Source: an uncultured Clostridia bacterium
Lineage (GTDB): Bacteria; Bacillota; Clostridia; Peptostreptococcales; Anaerovoracaceae
Direction of reading: 5' to 3'
Assembly: GCA_934255435.1 (NCBI GenBank)
Contig: CAKQNZ010000142.1
Coordinates: 1-5,206 of the forward strand
Length of the DNA stretch: 5,206 nt
Shown here: positions 1 through 5,206 of the stretch, piece by piece
Layout: every line of letters begins with the position of its first letter
How positions within the stretch are numbered: position 1 is the first letter of the stretch
The notes under the pieces: model-generated
What the model was told of the DNA's origin: nothing
The model's input: only the letters and a program-made list of their open reading frames with translations
Database searches by the model: none
Translations under genes and position numbers: made by a program

Positions 1-481
1 CGCCGCCTGAAATGAACACCTTGGAGCCGTTCAGCAGGTAATGATCGCCCTTGTCCTCTGCGATGGTCTGCTGCATTGCGGCGTCGGTGCCTGCGTTAGG
101 CTCAGTGAGTCCGAATGCTCCTATCTTCTCTCCCCTGAGCAGGTCAGGAAGATATTTTCTCTTCTGTTCTTCTGTGCCGTATGTGAATATCGGCCAGCAG
201 CACAGTGCGTTATGCGTCTGCACTATAACGCCGTGTGACGGACATATCTTTGATATTTCCTCCACTGCCATGACGTATGTGACATAGTCGAGACCGCTGC
301 CACCGTATTCCTTCGGGAACGGCATGCCCATGATACCCATTTTACCGAGTTTCTTCACGGTCTCCAGCGGATACTCCGCATCCCTGTCCATCTTGTCCAG
401 GATCGGAGCTATCTCTTTCTCTGCGAAGTCTCTGAGCATAGCCTTTATCTCAAGCTGTTTTTCAGAATAACCAAATTCCAT
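1..481 (-). CDS. Acyl-CoA dehydrogenase, N-terminal part (cut by window edge)
   Basis: This is a flavoprotein that oxidises an acyl-CoA to the 2,3-enoyl-CoA, passing electrons through FAD to an electron-transfer flavoprotein in the cytoplasm. I translated 160 codons from the ATG at 481 by hand. The protein opens MEFGYSEKQLEIKAML and has the typical all-helical N-terminal domain, then PKEYGGSGLDYV at about residues 57-68 and VEEISKICPSHG at about 73-84. The family signature AFGLTEPNAGTDA lies at about 122-134, at the start of the beta domain that contacts FAD and substrate. It continues as YLLNGSKVFISGG to the edge. Family members are about 380 residues, so roughly 58% is missing, including the catalytic Glu, and chain-length preference cannot be read. 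The closest type is short-chain/butyryl-CoA dehydrogenase. The start is supported by GAGAGGAGA (486-494) four bases upstream. It is divergent from the STAS-CoA ligase gene. Confidence 0.93.
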   Translation of the reverse strand, partial: MEFGYSEKQLEIKAMLRDFAEKEIAPILDKMDRDAEYPLETVKKLGKMGIMGMPFPKEYGGSGLDYVTYVMAVEEISKICPSHGVIVQTHNALCCWPIFTYGTEEQKRKYLPDLLRGEKIGAFGLTEPNAGTDAAMQQTIAEDKGDHYLLNGSKVFISGG

Positions 482-485
482 TGTT

Positions 486-494
486 TCTCCTCTC
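486..494 (-). promoter_or_regulatory. Ribosome binding site of the acyl-CoA dehydrogenase gene
   Basis: On the minus strand this reads GAGAGGAGA, followed by AACA and the ATG at 481. Spacing and sequence are near ideal and fix the start codon. Confidence 0.8.
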
Positions 495-524
495 TTTCAG
501 TAGATACAAATACACTTTAATGTT

Positions 525-533
525 ATTATATCA
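525..533 (-). promoter_or_regulatory. Extended -10 promoter for the acyl-CoA dehydrogenase gene
   Basis: The minus strand reads TGATATAAT: a perfect TATAAT hexamer (525-530) with the TG of an extended -10 element one base upstream. At 17-bp spacing the -35 position (548-553) reads TACAAA, a poor match, which extended -10 promoters tolerate. Transcription would begin near 518, giving a leader of about 37 nt that contains the ribosome binding site. The same nine-base motif serves the divergent gene at 655-663. Confidence 0.6.
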
Positions 534-614
534 TGTCTGGCAGAATATTTGTATAATCTTCACTCACATCTGCGATATTTGGATTTTTCACATATTTTAC
601 TGTTGCAAATAAGC

Positions 615-626
615 ATGATAAATCAT
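615..626. promoter_or_regulatory. Short inverted repeat in the divergent control region
   Basis: ATGAT-AA-ATCAT is an inverted repeat with 5-bp arms, lying between the two divergent promoters and just upstream of the rightward one. It may be a protein-binding site, but arms this short in AT-rich DNA can arise by chance. The rest of 534-634 shows no gene. Confidence 0.2.
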
Positions 627-634
627 TAAGTTAT

Positions 635-652
635 TACACCAGACCGGGTGTA
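635..652. promoter_or_regulatory. Candidate operator: TACACC-N6-GGTGTA inverted repeat
   Basis: A perfect 6-bp inverted repeat with a 6-bp spacer (AGACCG) lies over the -35 position and most of the spacer of the rightward promoter, ending five bases before the -10 hexamer at 658-663. Its size and place fit a dimeric transcription factor controlling the STAS-CoA ligase gene. No regulator gene is in view and I do not recognise the site as that of a named family. Confidence 0.4.
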
Positions 653-654
653 TC

Positions 655-663
655 TGATATAAT
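655..663 (+). promoter_or_regulatory. Extended -10 promoter for the STAS-CoA ligase gene
   Basis: TGATATAAT is a perfect -10 hexamer (658-663) with an extended TG. The -35 position at 17-bp spacing (635-640, TACACC) is weak and coincides with the left arm of the inverted repeat at 635-652, so an activator or a repressor acting here is plausible. The predicted start is near 670, leaving a leader of about 112 nt. Confidence 0.6.
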
Positions 664-669
664 ATAAAC

Positions 670-781
670 AAAGTACGGCATTCCGCTGCCGGGACAGGTG
701 TCACTGCCTGTACTGTGCCGGATACAGACCGTGACTCAACAAAAGCAAATCTTGAGCAAGTAAGGGAAACAGGAAAAACAA
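670..781 (+). promoter_or_regulatory. Structured 5' leader with competing hairpins
   Basis: Several stems can be drawn in the leader of the STAS-CoA ligase mRNA. CGGCA (676-680) pairs with TGCCG at 687-691 or with the identical TGCCG at 716-720. ACAGG (694-698) pairs with CCTGT (707-711), extended by two G-U pairs to a TCAC loop. CTGTA (708-712) pairs with TACAG (723-727), which excludes the previous stem. GTCAC (700-704) could instead pair with GTGAC (731-735). CTCAA (735-739) pairs with TTGAG (752-756). I match it to no known riboswitch family, and there is no U-tract terminator. AGGA at 771-774, seven bases before the ATG, is the ribosome binding site. Confidence 0.4.
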
Positions 782-2659
782 ATGAGAATTTTTGAAAAAA
801 AAGAAAAGGATACTGTCACGCTCAGACTGAGAGGACGACTGGAAGTCAACACCGCTCCTTATCTCAGAGAAGCAATGGAAAAAATCGACCCGGAAAAGGA
901 AAAGCTCGTACTGGATCTGTCGGAACTTGAATATATCTCGGCAGCAGGCGTCAGGGAGCTGATGATATGTCAGACCCGGATGGGTGAAGGCCGGATGGAT
1001 ATAACGAAGATATCCAGATCGCTGATGGAGGTCTTCGAGCTCACCGGATTCGATAACATACTGCCCGTATCGAAAGAAGATGTACAGGTGCCGTCATACA
1101 TGGGTGTGTCCTTCAAATCGCTGCTGGAGCGCAAGGCCACTATGAAAGGCGACAAGGTGGTCCTGGTGGACCGTGACAGCAGCTGGACATGGAGCCAGAT
1201 AAACAAATGTGCCCAGATCATGGCAGTGGACCTGTCGTATATGGGTATAAAAAAAGGCACCCGTGTGGGACTTTGCGGAGCCAATTCCGTAGGCTGGATA
1301 ATATGCTTCTTCGCACTGCAGAAGCTGGGCGCTATGACGGTACTGCTGAATTTCGCACACAAGCCCGCCGAGATAGCAAGGATCTCCGGCCTCGGCGACA
1401 TCGAATATCTCTGCTACGGCCAGATGACCGCCATGACTGACGAGTTCGAATACATCAAGGAAGTCAGAGCCTGCGACGACAACAGGATCCTGAAATTCTT
1501 CAGTATCCAGAACCCTGTGCTGTACCTGCAGCGTCTCGGTGAATATGAGATAGTCAAGGACTACTACCACGAACCAGTGGACGCCGATATGCCAAGCGTC
1601 ATGCTTTATACATCAGGTTCCACAGGCACACCTAAGGGAGTCATGCTGTCCTCCTACAACCTGCTGCGTTCCGCCGACGTGAGCCGTGAAGCTCAGCAGC
1701 TCACCGAAGATGACCGTCTGTGCCAGGCGCCGCCGCTTTTCCATATATTCGGGCTCGTGTTCGGACTGCTCTCTTTCCTCCTGGCTGATGCAAAGGTCTA
1801 CCTGCCGGAATCCATCCACAGCTCCGATCTTATCAGGACCATCGAGGAAAACAGATGCACTGTCTATCATGCGGTGCCGACCATGATGCTGATGCTGCTG
1901 GAAAGCAGTGACTTCAAACCTGAAAAAGTATCGTCTGTCCGCTGCTCCATGCTGGCGGGAGCCCCTACCAGCCCTGCTCAGATGAAGCATATGCAGGAAA
2001 TGATGCCGGACAACCACTTCATGCAAGTCTACGGTCTCAGCGAGATAGCACCTGCCACTATCACAGAATATGGCGATACTCAGGAACATCTGCTGGATAC
2101 AGTCGGAAAGCCTGTTATCTGCTGCGAGCTGATGATAAGGGATATAAACACAGGCAAAGAGTGTGCTCCGGGAGAGGTCGGAGAGATCCTGATAAAAGGT
2201 TTCAATATGATGCTGGGCTACTACAAGCTGCCATACAGCAGCCAGCCTATAGACAAGGACGGATGGCTCCGCTCCGGTGACCTGGGAACGATAACGGAGG
2301 ACGGCTATCTGACGATCTCCGGGCGGCTGAAAGAGCTGATAATCAGAGGCGGCGAGAACATCATGCCTAACGAGATAGCCGATGCTGTCGTAAAACTCGA
2401 TGCTGTCAAGGACGTCAAGGTGGTAGGCGTGCCAAGCGAATTCTACGGTGAAGAAGTCGCTGCCTGCATCAGGCTCCGGGAAGGCGCTGTGTTCGATGAA
2501 GACGAGGCAAGGAAGCAGCTGGCTGAAGATCTGGCGAAATACAAGATACCGTCATACTTCTTCTGCTACGACAGCTTCCCTACGCTGCCGAGCGGCAAGA
2601 TGGACAGCGTCCGCCTGAAAAAAGAAGCTGCGGAGAAAGCCGCTGCACTGGGGAAATAA
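782..2659 (+). CDS. STAS domain fused to an acyl-CoA synthetase (AMP-forming)
   Basis: The protein has 625 residues and no predicted membrane segment. Residues 1-100 are a STAS domain, the fold of SpoIIAA/RsbV anti-sigma-factor antagonists: a VTLRLRGRLEVNTAPYLREAM strand-helix unit, then LVLDLSELEYISAAGVREL (42-60), then VFELTGFDNILPV (84-96). Ala54 occupies the position of the phosphorylated Ser of SpoIIAA. Residues from about 110 to 625 are a full-length adenylate-forming enzyme: P-loop YTSGSTGTPKGV (276-287), HIFG (321-324), YGLSE (417-421), SGDLG (498-502), GRLKELIIRGGENI (514-527), and the C-terminal catalytic lysine in LPSGKMD (K606). All key motifs are intact, so it should adenylate a carboxylate and pass it to CoA. 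The substrate cannot be read. P600-x4-GK fits the PX4GK context in which protein acetyltransferases modify such enzymes. The start is set by AGGA seven bases upstream and by the intact STAS first strand. Confidence 0.93.
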   Translation: MRIFEKKEKDTVTLRLRGRLEVNTAPYLREAMEKIDPEKEKLVLDLSELEYISAAGVRELMICQTRMGEGRMDITKISRSLMEVFELTGFDNILPVSKEDVQVPSYMGVSFKSLLERKATMKGDKVVLVDRDSSWTWSQINKCAQIMAVDLSYMGIKKGTRVGLCGANSVGWIICFFALQKLGAMTVLLNFAHKPAEIARISGLGDIEYLCYGQMTAMTDEFEYIKEVRACDDNRILKFFSIQNPVLYLQRLGEYEIVKDYYHEPVDADMPSVMLYTSGSTGTPKGVMLSSYNLLRSADVSREAQQLTEDDRLCQAPPLFHIFGLVFGLLSFLLADAKVYLPESIHSSDLIRTIEENRCTVYHAVPTMMLMLLESSDFKPEKVSSVRCSMLAGAPTSPAQMKHMQEMMPDNHFMQVYGLSEIAPATITEYGDTQEHLLDTVGKPVICCELMIRDINTGKECAPGEVGEILIKGFNMMLGYYKLPYSSQPIDKDGWLRSGDLGTITEDGYLTISGRLKELIIRGGENIMPNEIADAVVKLDAVKDVKVVGVPSEFYGEEVAACIRLREGAVFDEDEARKQLAEDLAKYKIPSYFFCYDSFPTLPSGKMDSVRLKKEAAEKAAALGK

Positions 2660-2699
2660 ATGATCTCTCAGCGAAACGCCGACCGGCAAGCCATGACTA

Positions 2700-2749
2700 T
2701 CCGGGACAAAAGTGGCTTCGCCACATATTACTTTTGTTGATATTCCGGA
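2700..2749 (+). terminator. Nested hairpin after the STAS-CoA ligase gene, possible terminator
   Basis: Three nested complementary pairs fit one structure: TCCGG (2700-2704) with CCGGA (2745-2749); ACAAAA (2706-2711) with TTTTGT (2732-2737); and GTGGC (2712-2716) with GCCAC (2720-2724) around a TTC loop. There is a 7-nt bulge at 2725-2731. It begins 40 nt after the stop codon. The run TTTTGTTGATATT is only moderately U-rich, so termination may be partial, or the element may process or protect the transcript. No promoter for the next gene is convincing, so some read-through is likely. Confidence 0.4.
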
Positions 2750-2780
2750 AATATCGAAAACTATATTTCCTGCATAATAA

Positions 2781-2786
2781 AGGAGG
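2781..2786 (+). promoter_or_regulatory. Strong Shine-Dalgarno with awkward spacing
   Basis: AGGAGG (within AAAGGAGG, 2779-2786) is a perfect ribosome-binding sequence. The in-frame TTG at 2789 is only two bases away, closer than usual, while the first in-frame ATG is 32 bases away at 2819. It leaves the start of the lipoprotein gene undecided. Confidence 0.55.
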
Positions 2787-2818
2787 CATTGCAGCACGAC
2801 ACTGCAGATACTATAGCG

Positions 2819-3709
2819 ATGCAAAAGAAACTTGAAATTGTGCGTAACGTGACGGAGTTTTCCTGTCTGCTTGCTGTCTGTGCAGTGCTCATGATGTTCA
2901 TGAGCGGCTGCGCAGGCGTATCCACAGCCACAGAAGATGATATAAAAAGTGCTGTTGAAAAAGGTCTTGAGGCCAGATGGGATTATCAGAACAGTCACAG
3001 AGCATATAAGCTCAACAGCAAAGAAACGACGTCCAGCCTGAAAAAATACTATAAGAAGTCCATCGATCAGGAACTGAAATACATCGGAAAATACAAAGAC
3101 GCCGATTTTGAAAGCGCCGATCTCGGTGACGCAGCTCTCGGATACATAAATAGCCTGGAAAAACAGCAGGATCTGCTTTCCAGCGATATAAAGGATTACT
3201 GGACGCTCAAGTACGATCTGAAAGCGTATCAGTGGCACGGGATTAAAGCTTTGAAACAGCTGAACGACATCTGCGGATTCGAATTTTCGGACGACTATCA
3301 GATAGAATTCGACCAGATGATGAATGACTCAGACGATGAGAATATGTCTGACGATCCGAAACAGGTCACGGAAGCATTTACGATAGAAAGCCAGACGGTG
3401 GAAAACGATAACGGCAGCTGCCAGCCGACGGTAACAGTAAAGAACAACACGGACTTTGCATACGACTGCTATGCACTGGTCTACCGTTTCAGATCAGAAG
3501 ACGGAACTATCATCGAATCTGGCCTGTACGACTATATCTACAAATTCGAGGCAGGCTCCGAAATGAAGACAATCTACAGCGGACCTGAGCTTAAACCGGG
3601 ATATACATACGAAGCATACGGATACGCCGTTGAAGAGACCGAAGACGACGAATACGTCGGCGATACGATGAAACTGCCGAAGCCGGTCACCATCAGGGTA
3701 ACAGAATGA
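2819..3709 (+). CDS. Putative lipoprotein of unknown function
   Basis: I do not recognise this protein. From the ATG at 2819 it has 296 residues. A lipoprotein signal peptide is clear: MQKK, a hydrophobic stretch at 15-28, and a lipobox ending MSGC with Cys31 as the likely lipidated residue. It would therefore sit on the outer face of the membrane. Residues about 38-155 are charged and mostly helical, rich in Lys, Asp and Tyr. An acidic linker follows (NDSDDENMSDDP, 169-180). Residues about 187-294 look beta-rich, with alternating patterns such as PTVTVKNNTDFAYDCYALVYRF and a GLYDYIY motif, resembling the FxLYD-type extracellular domains of Bacillota lipoproteins; that assignment is tentative. 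A TTG start at 2789 would add ten residues (MQHDTADTIA) whose acidic character is odd ahead of a signal peptide. A substrate-binding or cell-surface role is possible but not shown. Confidence 0.82.
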   Translation: MQKKLEIVRNVTEFSCLLAVCAVLMMFMSGCAGVSTATEDDIKSAVEKGLEARWDYQNSHRAYKLNSKETTSSLKKYYKKSIDQELKYIGKYKDADFESADLGDAALGYINSLEKQQDLLSSDIKDYWTLKYDLKAYQWHGIKALKQLNDICGFEFSDDYQIEFDQMMNDSDDENMSDDPKQVTEAFTIESQTVENDNGSCQPTVTVKNNTDFAYDCYALVYRFRSEDGTIIESGLYDYIYKFEAGSEMKTIYSGPELKPGYTYEAYGYAVEETEDDEYVGDTMKLPKPVTIRVTE

Positions 3710-3773
3710 TATATCCTCAGGATGAATCATGAATACATACGTTCCAAGCGTCGATCATGCAAGACTATCAGAA

Positions 3774-3830
3774 ACGAGATACCATACTGACTGACCCTCA
3801 TCAGCCGGTGCGGTATCCCGTTTTTCTTTC
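3774..3830 (+). terminator. Intrinsic terminator between convergent genes
   Basis: ACGAGATACC (3774-3783) pairs with GGTATCCCGT (3812-3821) with one A-C mismatch. Two further A-T pairs outside it draw on the T-run. The loop of about 28 nt contains a further CTGA/TCAG pairing. The run TTTTTCTTTC (3821-3830) completes a rho-independent terminator for the lipoprotein gene, 64 nt after its stop. Read on the minus strand the stem is followed only by GTTTC, so it might act weakly for the cysteine synthase transcript as well. I see nothing else firm in 3710-3949 beyond a short palindrome, ATCCT-C-AGGAT, at 3713-3723. Confidence 0.7.
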
Positions 3831-3949
3831 GATCATACTATTTCATGATATAAAACTGTCTCGGATCTTTCCACGAATATCCAGATATGACAAACATACA
3901 TATAGATCTGTCGCCTGTATTTTATGATCCGTTCGTTGTGCTCATATTT

Positions 3950-4879
3950 TTATTCATTGAACAGCGGTGTTGAGAAGTATCTCTCTGCTGTGTCCGGGAG
4001 CACTGTCACAACGGTCTTGCCCTTGCCCAGCTTCTTTGCCAGCTTCAGTGCTGCTGCCACGTTGGTACCGCTGGATATACCGCACATGAGGCCTTCCAGC
4101 CTTGCCAGATTCTGTGCTGTAGTGATGGCTTCTTCATCTGTGACTATATAGATCTCATCGAAGATCTGTCTGTTGAGGATCTGCGGTATAAGTCCGTCAC
4201 CTATACCCATCTGCAGGTGAGTTCCTATATCTCCGCCTGCCAGTATAGCTGCGTTCTCAGGCTCCACAGCCCATATCTCGATGTCCGGATTCTGGGCCTT
4301 CAGCACTTCTCCGATACCTGTTATGGTGCCACCTGTTCCTATTCCCGAACAGAATCCGTGTATCTCACCTTCCACCTGCTCCATTATCTCAAGAGCTGTA
4401 TGGTGTCTGTGAGCCATAGGATTTGCTTCATTCTCGAACTGCTGCGGTACGAAGACCTTTGGATCCTCTTCAGCCATTTTCATGGCAAGCTTCTGGCACT
4501 CGTCTATGCACTTTCCTATATTGCCCTCATCGTGTATCAGTCTGACCTCAGCTCCATAGTGTTTCACTATCTTGCGGCGCTCCTCGCTGACCGAGTCCGG
4601 CATTATTATTATCGTCTTATATCCTCTCACTGCTCCCACCAGTGCCAGTCCTATGCCCTGGTTGCCGCTGGTCGGTTCAACGATTATCGTGTCTTCGTTG
4701 ATAAGACCTTTTTTCTCTGCATCCAGGATCATGTTGTATGCAGTCCTTGTCTTTATGGAACCGCCTACGTTAAGTCCTTCGAATTTCACCAGCACGTCAG
4801 CGCTGTCCGGCTCCACCATCCTGTTGAGTCTGATCACCGGCGTATGTCCTACAGCTGCCAGCACATTATCATAAATCAT
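3950..4879 (-). CDS. cysK: PLP-dependent cysteine synthase (O-acetylserine sulfhydrylase family)
   Basis: A 309-residue, full-length, cytoplasmic fold-type II PLP enzyme that makes L-cysteine from an activated serine (normally O-acetyl-L-serine) and sulfide. Seen motifs: GHTPVIRLNR (11-20); FEGLNVGGSIKTR with the Schiff-base lysine K43; the substrate loop EPTSGNQGIG (68-77), which grips the amino acid carboxylate; the PLP-phosphate loop GIGTGGT (179-185); GISSGTN (267-273), whose Ser contacts the PLP ring nitrogen; and VLPDTAERYFST at the C-terminus. It departs from the textbook enzyme: NPxGSxKDR is NVGGSIKTR, SGNTGI is SGNQGI, and HKIQGIG is HLQMGIG. So the family is sure but the exact acyl donor (O-acetylserine or O-phosphoserine) is less so. 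The start follows AGGAAG (4888-4893) seven bases upstream. It appears monocistronic, with no serine acetyltransferase gene adjacent. Confidence 0.9.
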   Translation of the reverse strand: MIYDNVLAAVGHTPVIRLNRMVEPDSADVLVKFEGLNVGGSIKTRTAYNMILDAEKKGLINEDTIIVEPTSGNQGIGLALVGAVRGYKTIIIMPDSVSEERRKIVKHYGAEVRLIHDEGNIGKCIDECQKLAMKMAEEDPKVFVPQQFENEANPMAHRHHTALEIMEQVEGEIHGFCSGIGTGGTITGIGEVLKAQNPDIEIWAVEPENAAILAGGDIGTHLQMGIGDGLIPQILNRQIFDEIYIVTDEEAITTAQNLARLEGLMCGISSGTNVAAALKLAKKLGKGKTVVTVLPDTAERYFSTPLFNE

Positions 4880-4914
4880 TCTACCACTTCCTGTTTTTCA
4901 TTCTATGCTTTTAC

Positions 4915-4943
4915 TGGGTCGCAGTCCGGGATCGTCCGACCCA
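4915..4943 (-). promoter_or_regulatory. Hairpin in the cysteine synthase leader
   Basis: A 7-bp perfect stem, TGGGTCG with CGACCCA, closes a 15-nt loop within the roughly 77-nt leader. The upper part carries GTCCG twice (plus strand 4924-4928 and 4934-4938), ten bases apart, i.e. one helical turn. It may be an RNA hairpin or a DNA-binding site. No U-tract follows, so it is not a terminator, and I see no T-box motif. Confidence 0.35.
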
Positions 4944-4962
4944 TGCAATATCACACCTTACT

Positions 4963-4991
4963 ATTGTAGAACAAAAAAATGATACACGCAA
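4963..4991 (-). promoter_or_regulatory. Promoter of the cysteine synthase gene
   Basis: The minus strand shows TTGCGT (4986-4991), exactly 17 bp, then TACAAT (4963-4968), a five-of-six match to the -10 consensus. Transcription would start near 4956. The -35 element lies inside the terminator stem of the upstream gene and the T-run forms part of the spacer. Confidence 0.55.
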
Positions 4992-5012
4992 TAATCAAAT
5001 CACATATATCAT
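4973..5012 (-). terminator. Intrinsic terminator of the right-edge gene
   Basis: In minus-strand RNA, 4979-5012 folds into a 14-bp stem with a 6-nt loop (UUGAUU), starting AUGAUA and closing UAUCAU, followed by seven U (4973-4979, the first one shared with the stem end). Five of the 14 pairs are G-U, which become A-C mismatches in the plus-strand RNA, so the structure favours minus-strand transcripts. It begins 34 nt after the stop codon at 5047. Confidence 0.65.
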
Positions 5013-5046
5013 CTCTTATTATATCGACAGCATCCTGCACTTGACT

Positions 5047-5206
5047 TCATCCTCTGCCGTATATCTCCACCTGCTGCACCATGTGTCCTATATTGCCTTC
5101 ACCTGCAAAGGTCTGCATGTCGAAAAAGTCTGTGTCTTCAAGCGGTATCCAGCACAGGGGGTGTTTCTCCGGTACGAGGCTGACTTCTCTGTGCAGAGTC
5201 CCGACA
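5047..5206 (-). CDS. C-terminal end of an unidentified protein, possibly Nudix-type hydrolase
   Basis: An open minus-strand frame enters at the right edge and runs 52 codons to TGA (5047-5049). It begins VGTLHREVSLVP and continues EKHPLCWIPLEDTDFF, ending MVQQVEIYGRG. The codon style matches its neighbours, and a terminator follows at 4973-5012, both of which support a real gene. The EKHPLCWIPLED stretch resembles the end of Nudix hydrolases, where a Trp-x-Pro-Leu follows the fold's last strands, but the Nudix box itself would lie outside the window, so the assignment is a guess. The gene is read in the same direction as the cysteine synthase gene, 167 bp upstream of it, yet separated by the terminator and a promoter. 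Confidence 0.6.
   Translation of the reverse strand, partial: VGTLHREVSLVPEKHPLCWIPLEDTDFFDMQTFAGEGNIGHMVQQVEIYGRG

Follow-up and report, generated by a model that had tools for sequence, protein, structure and literature searches.

A predicted acyl-CoA synthetase joined to an RsbV/SpoIIAA-type STAS domain in an uncultured Clostridia bacterium

Partner switching is known chiefly as a form of sigma-factor control. What, then, does a STAS domain of the RsbV/SpoIIAA type do at the head of a metabolic enzyme? The question is raised by a gene on contig CAKQNZ010000142.1 (assembly GCA_934255435.1, an uncultured Clostridia bacterium), of which positions 1 to 5,206 were analysed; this whole stretch of 5,206 nucleotides is called the window. 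Its predicted product is an ATP-dependent acyl-CoA synthetase joined to such a domain. The features of the gene are as follows.

782..2659, + strand: STAS-acyl-CoA ligase fusion gene, 625 residues (open frame, Pfam, homologues of the same architecture)
782..1081, + strand: STAS domain of the RsbV/SpoIIAA type, residues 1-100 (Pfam PF01740 at 8-97 and PF13466 at 14-91; AlphaFold 2, Foldseek, VIA)
842..844, + strand: Glu21, beside the switch site (homologue alignment)
941..943, + strand: Ala54 (gca), at the RsbV/SpoIIAA phosphoserine position (alignments, sequence)
1124..2224, + strand: AMP-binding domain, residues 115-481 (Pfam, E 4e-80)
1610..1639, + strand: TSGSTGTPKG, residues 277-286, presumably the ATP-binding loop (sequence, conservation)
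2372..2599, + strand: AMP-binding_C domain, residues 531-606, ending at Lys606 (Pfam)

The fusion protein and its domains

The preliminary description of the locus had proposed that one unbroken frame holds a STAS domain followed by an intact ligase, and this holds: the STAS match begins at residue 8 and ends at residue 97, all ten of the ligase core residues checked are intact, and the only Pfam families matching the protein are of the STAS and AMP-binding types. Both domains of an ANL acyl-CoA synthetase, AMP-binding and AMP-binding_C, are present, together with the P-loop, E421, D500, R515 and K606, which we take to be the ANL core catalytic motifs. Residue 606, presumably the catalytic lysine, is K in 110 of the 111 aligned homologues (rows P0001-P0111), the remaining row having a gap. 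The closest structural matches of the ligase are feruloyl-CoA synthetase and MenE. The protein thus resembles the ANL acyl- and aryl-CoA synthetases (PRK06187, MenE, 4CL, feruloyl-CoA synthetase) in its domains and core residues, but differs from them in its N-terminal STAS domain and in falling under every NCBIfam cut-off (25 best of 114 models).

A structure search with the model of the whole protein returned ligases throughout, and the STAS part was therefore folded alone. The AlphaFold 2 model had a predicted local distance difference test score (pLDDT) of 92, and the top Foldseek and VIA matches were RsbV, TM1442 and SpoIIAA, confirming the earlier assignment of residues 1-100 to a STAS fold. 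Pfam, alignment, structure prediction and structure matches agree on the RsbV/SpoIIAA subtype, to which the domain is predicted to be closer than to the STAS domains of transporters. An SLC26-type module was rejected for this part of the protein by the Pfam result and the structure matches. The stressosome proteins are built otherwise, RsbR being a sensor domain followed by a C-terminal STAS domain and RsbS a STAS domain alone; the window protein has neither architecture. In SulP/SLC26 transporters and in MlaB a partner is bound or regulated through a STAS domain, as passages of the MlaFB study describe for MlaB (PMC7367683). Unlike the SulP/SLC26 proteins, the window protein has no transporter domain, and its STAS domain is N-terminal and nearer to RsbV than theirs.

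A link between STAS domains and acyl metabolism is known from the complex of the STAS domain of Escherichia coli YchM (DauA) with acyl carrier protein (ACP; PDB 3ny7). By analogy, the STAS domain of the ligase might bind ACP, handing over an acyl group or sensing acyl-ACP. YchM, however, is a transporter and not a ligase, and its structural match is weaker; we regard ACP docking as quite improbable.

Family and evolutionary history

The homologues were collected by a public-protein search, and the counts given here refer to the best 120 of 3660 matches. Both STAS and AMP-binding Pfam domains are present in 99 of them. The other 21 include truncated and STAS-less proteins, as well as two full-length rows (P0051, P0093) that lack only the Pfam STAS call. 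Fused members carry source names such as Lachnospiraceae, Eubacterium, Eggerthellaceae, Bacilli and Fretibacterium metagenome-assembled genomes (MAGs), and single members are labelled "AMP-binding protein", "STAS domain-containing protein" or "anti-sigma factor antagonist". We rejected a fusion due to chance or artefact on account of this recurrence, which extends over independent assemblies. The preliminary description had held such attachments to be seldom seen; the fusion is no isolated oddity, STAS followed by AMP-binding being a recurrent architecture in a family of some size, for which a single origin is the simplest account.

Comparison with STAS-less homologues was made by a tree built from the ligase parts of 64 proteins: a selection of 44 fused rows among the best 120, ten STAS-less rows and ten proteins of the window and the loci studied. 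The root is the midpoint, and P0066, the second ligase of locus L084 (described below) and some others are on long branches. All 52 fused proteins fall within one clade of 58 (support 100/98), which also holds two STAS-less groups, P0066 on the one hand and P0106-P0109 with the protein of genome G909 on the other. Because the fused and STAS-less proteins share one clade, the simplest history is one fusion followed by two losses of the STAS domain. The G909 gene (L079:7822-9432) encodes a STAS-less close relative of the ligase and, with P0106-P0109, likely marks a secondary loss.

The gene is rare in the genomes of relatives. It was found in 2/40 (one STAS-less, 35%), 2/148, 2/391, 1/247, 2/140 (one STAS-less), 2/80 and 3/71 genomes of sets that overlap. 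At the sensitivity used, a viral home was rejected, none of 61 viral loci matching the query before residue 104, and so was a plasmid home, the ten listed of 12 plasmid records matching from residue 98 onward.

The switch residue

The STAS domain was aligned to RsbV (6m36), TM1442, 4hyl and a SpoIIAA-like protein of genome G003. Ala54 falls in the phosphoserine column of these alignments, which we take to be S56 in RsbV and S58 in SpoIIAA. Ser occupies this column in 94 of the 101 homologues having it, the others being Ala (3), Ile (2), Leu (1) and Cys (1); nine of the rows P0001-P0111 have a gap, and the Lys of STAS-less P0109, a spurious alignment, was left out of the 101. Most of the family therefore keeps the phosphosite Ser of the RsbV/SpoIIAA antagonists, from which the window copy differs in being joined to an enzyme and in having Ala at this site. 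The three Ala rows (P0001, P0002, P0004) all belong to the window's own clade. Of the three loci closest to that of the window, L001 and L003 have Ala and L002 (83% identical) has Ser, as does row P0003. Position 21 is Asp in 80, Asn in 13, Glu in four and another residue in four of the 111 homologues, with ten gaps; it is Glu in the window's clade.

According to passages of the MlaFB study in eLife (PMC7367683), three STAS proteins are phosphorylated at a structurally equivalent Ser/Thr, which disrupts partner binding, and the phosphorylatable residue is broadly conserved. No Ser or Thr stands at this position in the window copy, and its branch looks decoupled from phosphorylation. Nevertheless, the ratio of nonsynonymous to synonymous substitution rates (dN/dS) between the window and L001 is 0.10 for the STAS domain and 0.05 for the ligase; in the remaining five clade pairs synonymous sites are saturated. 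To judge from this comparison of sequences, the domain is under purifying selection despite Ala54.

These data bear on whether the STAS domain in the window's clade is a leftover, a structural or oligomerisation module derived from a former switch and having no partner. Such an origin would account for the solitary gene, Ala54 and Glu21, and the loss of the domain in two groups inside the clade, including the long-branched sister row P0066, indicates that it is dispensable at times. The purifying selection argues against it, though a structural module could show the same. We consider this explanation unlikely.

A switch-gene cluster in distant relatives

In genome G934 (L083/L084) the STAS-ligase gene lies on one strand with genes for a SpoIIE phosphatase, an RsbW-like HATPase of 134 residues, two proteins with an HxxxDG motif, two ATP-binding cassette (ABC) transporters, a debranching-type enzyme (CBM48 and alpha-amylase domains), a STAS-APH kinase, a free STAS protein of 98 residues and a second ligase. 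A further SpoIIE gene is in the opposite orientation. The same ten genes, up to the contig end, are found in G1016 with 96-100% identity. The G934 lineage shares a genus with G422, and G422 shares a class with G002; as the Clostridia record G001 belongs to the family of G002, the G934 lineage is assigned to the Clostridia.

Eight families of this cluster recur within about 16 kilobases of G004, a Coriobacteriaceae MAG (L004, L080). These are, with their identities to G934, the fused ligase (48%), the STAS-kinase (34%), two acyltransferase-like proteins (58 and 54%), the debranching-type enzyme (79%), two ABC transporters (57 and 60%) and the SpoIIE-type phosphatase (39%). A second STAS-ligase is situated further along. 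Beyond these common families, the Clostridia copy adds the RsbW-like kinase, the free STAS protein and the second ligase. In G422 (L012) two acyltransferase-like genes and a truncated remnant of the debranching-type gene accompany the fused ligase, and SpoIIE and RsbW-like genes adjoin each other on another contig. The remnant (L012:4422-4724) is 100 residues long and lies beside the STAS-ligase; its CBM48 match is below cut-off and the catalytic barrel seems missing.

The 79% identity of the debranching-type enzymes across two phyla suggests that the cluster moved between them by horizontal transfer. From its pair of acyltransferase-like proteins and its pair of ABC transporters, the product of the cluster may be an acylated compound that is perhaps exported. 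Coincidence of contig sizes proved a weak sign of co-location: the 111 fused-ligase rows had two sizes in common with 46 homologues of the acyltransferase-like proteins (0.22 expected by chance) and no size in common with 120 second-ligase homologues (0.69 expected), nor did the acyltransferase and second-ligase lists share any.

Two kinds of proteins of about 400 residues in the cluster have no Pfam match (L083:17657-18871, L084:3878-5113, L004:3384-5829, L012:57-2513). Five of the six read have the HxxxDG motif, which we liken to that of condensation/chloramphenicol acetyltransferase (CAT) acyltransferases, and one homologue is labelled non-ribosomal peptide synthetase (NRPS) condensation-like by its source. 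The fusion of STAS to an APH/TIGR02172-like kinase occurs in the STAS-ligase cluster of both phyla (L084:10677-11924, L080:9249-10532).

The second ligase has an end of its own:

L084:12240-14249: AMP ligase with a weak, degenerate RsbW-like HATPase_c_2 C-terminus

Its match to HATPase_c_2 (E 0.001, 19.5 bits) is under the 27.4 cut-off. Among the best 120 of 3777 homologues, with source names including Synergistaceae, Ruminococcus, Eggerthellaceae and Atopobiaceae, 13 have a Pfam HATPase_c_2 call, and most of the others that are equally long have none. Motifs were counted in one MAFFT alignment of the 108 homologues that are 640-690 residues long. None of the 108 has the N-box Asn found in the free kinase, and three have the last G2 glycine, whereas the N-box Glu is kept in 107; this HATPase-like end has thus probably lost its activity and been retained for binding. 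The presence in one cluster of an enzyme tagged with STAS and another with a HATPase-like end suggests binding between the two tags.

Docking, switching and the alternatives

The preliminary description had proposed that the STAS domain could dock the ligase to a kinase, anti-sigma factor or transporter and so couple it to a signalling state, or might sense a nucleotide or lipid ligand. Docking to a kinase or anti-sigma-type partner is plausible, as some relatives have SpoIIE, an RsbW-like kinase and a free STAS protein nearby, a likeness to the RsbV/SpoIIAA systems; the window itself holds no adjacent partner gene. Coupling by phosphorylation draws on the same context in some relatives, but cannot be claimed for the window copy with its Ala54 and lack of a partner gene.

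The explanation we prefer, with even confidence, is that the STAS domain is a docking tag for an RsbW-type (HATPase) partner, gated by Ser54 in most relatives. The tag would dock the ligase to the partner; once the kinase had phosphorylated Ser54 the enzyme would come free, and through a SpoIIE-type phosphatase it would regain the docked state. The window copy, predicted to be non-switchable because its phosphosite is Ala54 and its gene stands alone, would be fixed in the unphosphorylated, docking-competent form, decoupled from the kinase. This proposal starts from the fusion, its family, the predicted RsbV-like fold, the Ser conserved in the family, Ala54 in the window and the co-location in clusters; the binding, the phosphorylation and an effect on catalysis or on the assembly of pathway enzymes are its conjectural part.

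Candidate partners were counted in genomes carrying the gene or, in G909, its STAS-less relative. HATPase_c_2 matches over cut-off number four in G001, none in G002, one in G003, 11 in G004, four in G422, eight in G934 and four in G909; at least five of the 11 in G004 share their frame with a SpoIIE domain. The corresponding SpoIIE matches are two, two (both weak), two, 15, two, 16 and six.

Several observations weigh against the docking proposal. No switch genes adjoin the window gene, neither a HATPase kinase nor a sigma factor, whereas relative L083 has a neighbour of this kind. None were recognised around the gene in L001-L003, where seven of the neighbours were scanned (transposase, cupin, HD protein, part of an energy-coupling factor (ECF) transporter, metallophosphatase, antiporter and 2-hydroxyacid dehydrogenase); L003 starts 20 bases before its gene, so that its upstream side is off the contig. 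G002, whose protein is 83% identical and has Ser54, shows no HATPase_c_2 over cut-off, though this MAG may be incomplete. Ala54 and Glu21 change the switch pocket in the window's branch. Independent clusters were seen no more than twice, once in G934 and the near-identical G1016 and once in G004, and a free RsbW gene was not seen in the stretch of the G004 cluster read. The G1 Asp is kept in 97 of the 108 second-ligase ends, so that a dead kinase is not certain. Finally, the sole HATPase_c_2 over cut-off in G003, a MAG that may likewise be incomplete, is SpoIIAB-like and has a SpoIIAA-like STAS gene on one side and a sigma factor on the other.

This last arrangement would suit a transcriptional output, in which the ligase is a metabolite-responsive anti-anti-sigma factor: its STAS domain would bind SpoIIAB/RsbW, the substrate or nucleotide state would set the free amount, and the window's Ala54 copy would behave as a SpoIIAA that cannot be phosphorylated. 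The fold is closest to RsbV/SpoIIAA, and G001, which like G003 carries an Ala54 relative, has two HATPase_c_2 genes that adjoin sigma factors, one of these being similar to that of G003. However, G002 retains the gene although it shows no such HATPase over cut-off, and a scan of cluster genes in L083/L084, L004 and L012 turned up no sigma factor (not every frame was scanned), a difference from the RsbV/SpoIIAA systems. We think a transcriptional role unlikely.

The docking proposal can be extended, very tentatively and with a chance well short of even, to a phospho-switchable enzyme assembly line. A mobile cluster in anaerobes of two phyla would use the two halves of the switch as tags on metabolic enzymes, STAS on one ligase and a kinase-like protein, and a dead RsbW-like domain on the second ligase. 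A dedicated kinase and SpoIIE phosphatase would plug and unplug the enzymes without a sigma factor, and the window gene would be a member that has left the cluster, its product being held permanently plugged.

Surroundings of the gene

The other features of the window are as follows.

2-481, - strand: acyl-CoA dehydrogenase, part
2789-3709, + strand: hypothetical lipoprotein-like protein (MSGC start region; weak NCBIfam match NF045890, far below cut-off)
3950-4879, - strand: cysteine synthase

The dehydrogenase gene diverges from the STAS-ligase gene over 300 bases, and this neighbour was not seen in L001 and L002. The window has no Rfam match at gathering score. Its three promoter-like sites (2.6 expected) and four terminator-like sites (1.8 expected, standard deviation 1.7) are not clearly beyond chance.

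Implications

Among the papers listed by full-text literature searches, whose reach excluded most subscription papers, none dealt with a STAS-ligase fusion. Each domain is known; the combination and the cluster appear undescribed in the literature searched. A family that has a switch protein on a metabolic enzyme, clustered with a kinase, a phosphatase and an enzyme that seems to bear the switch's opposite half, would be a case of switch chemistry controlling metabolism directly. The cluster supplies a defined set of proteins with which direct metabolic partner switching can be tested.
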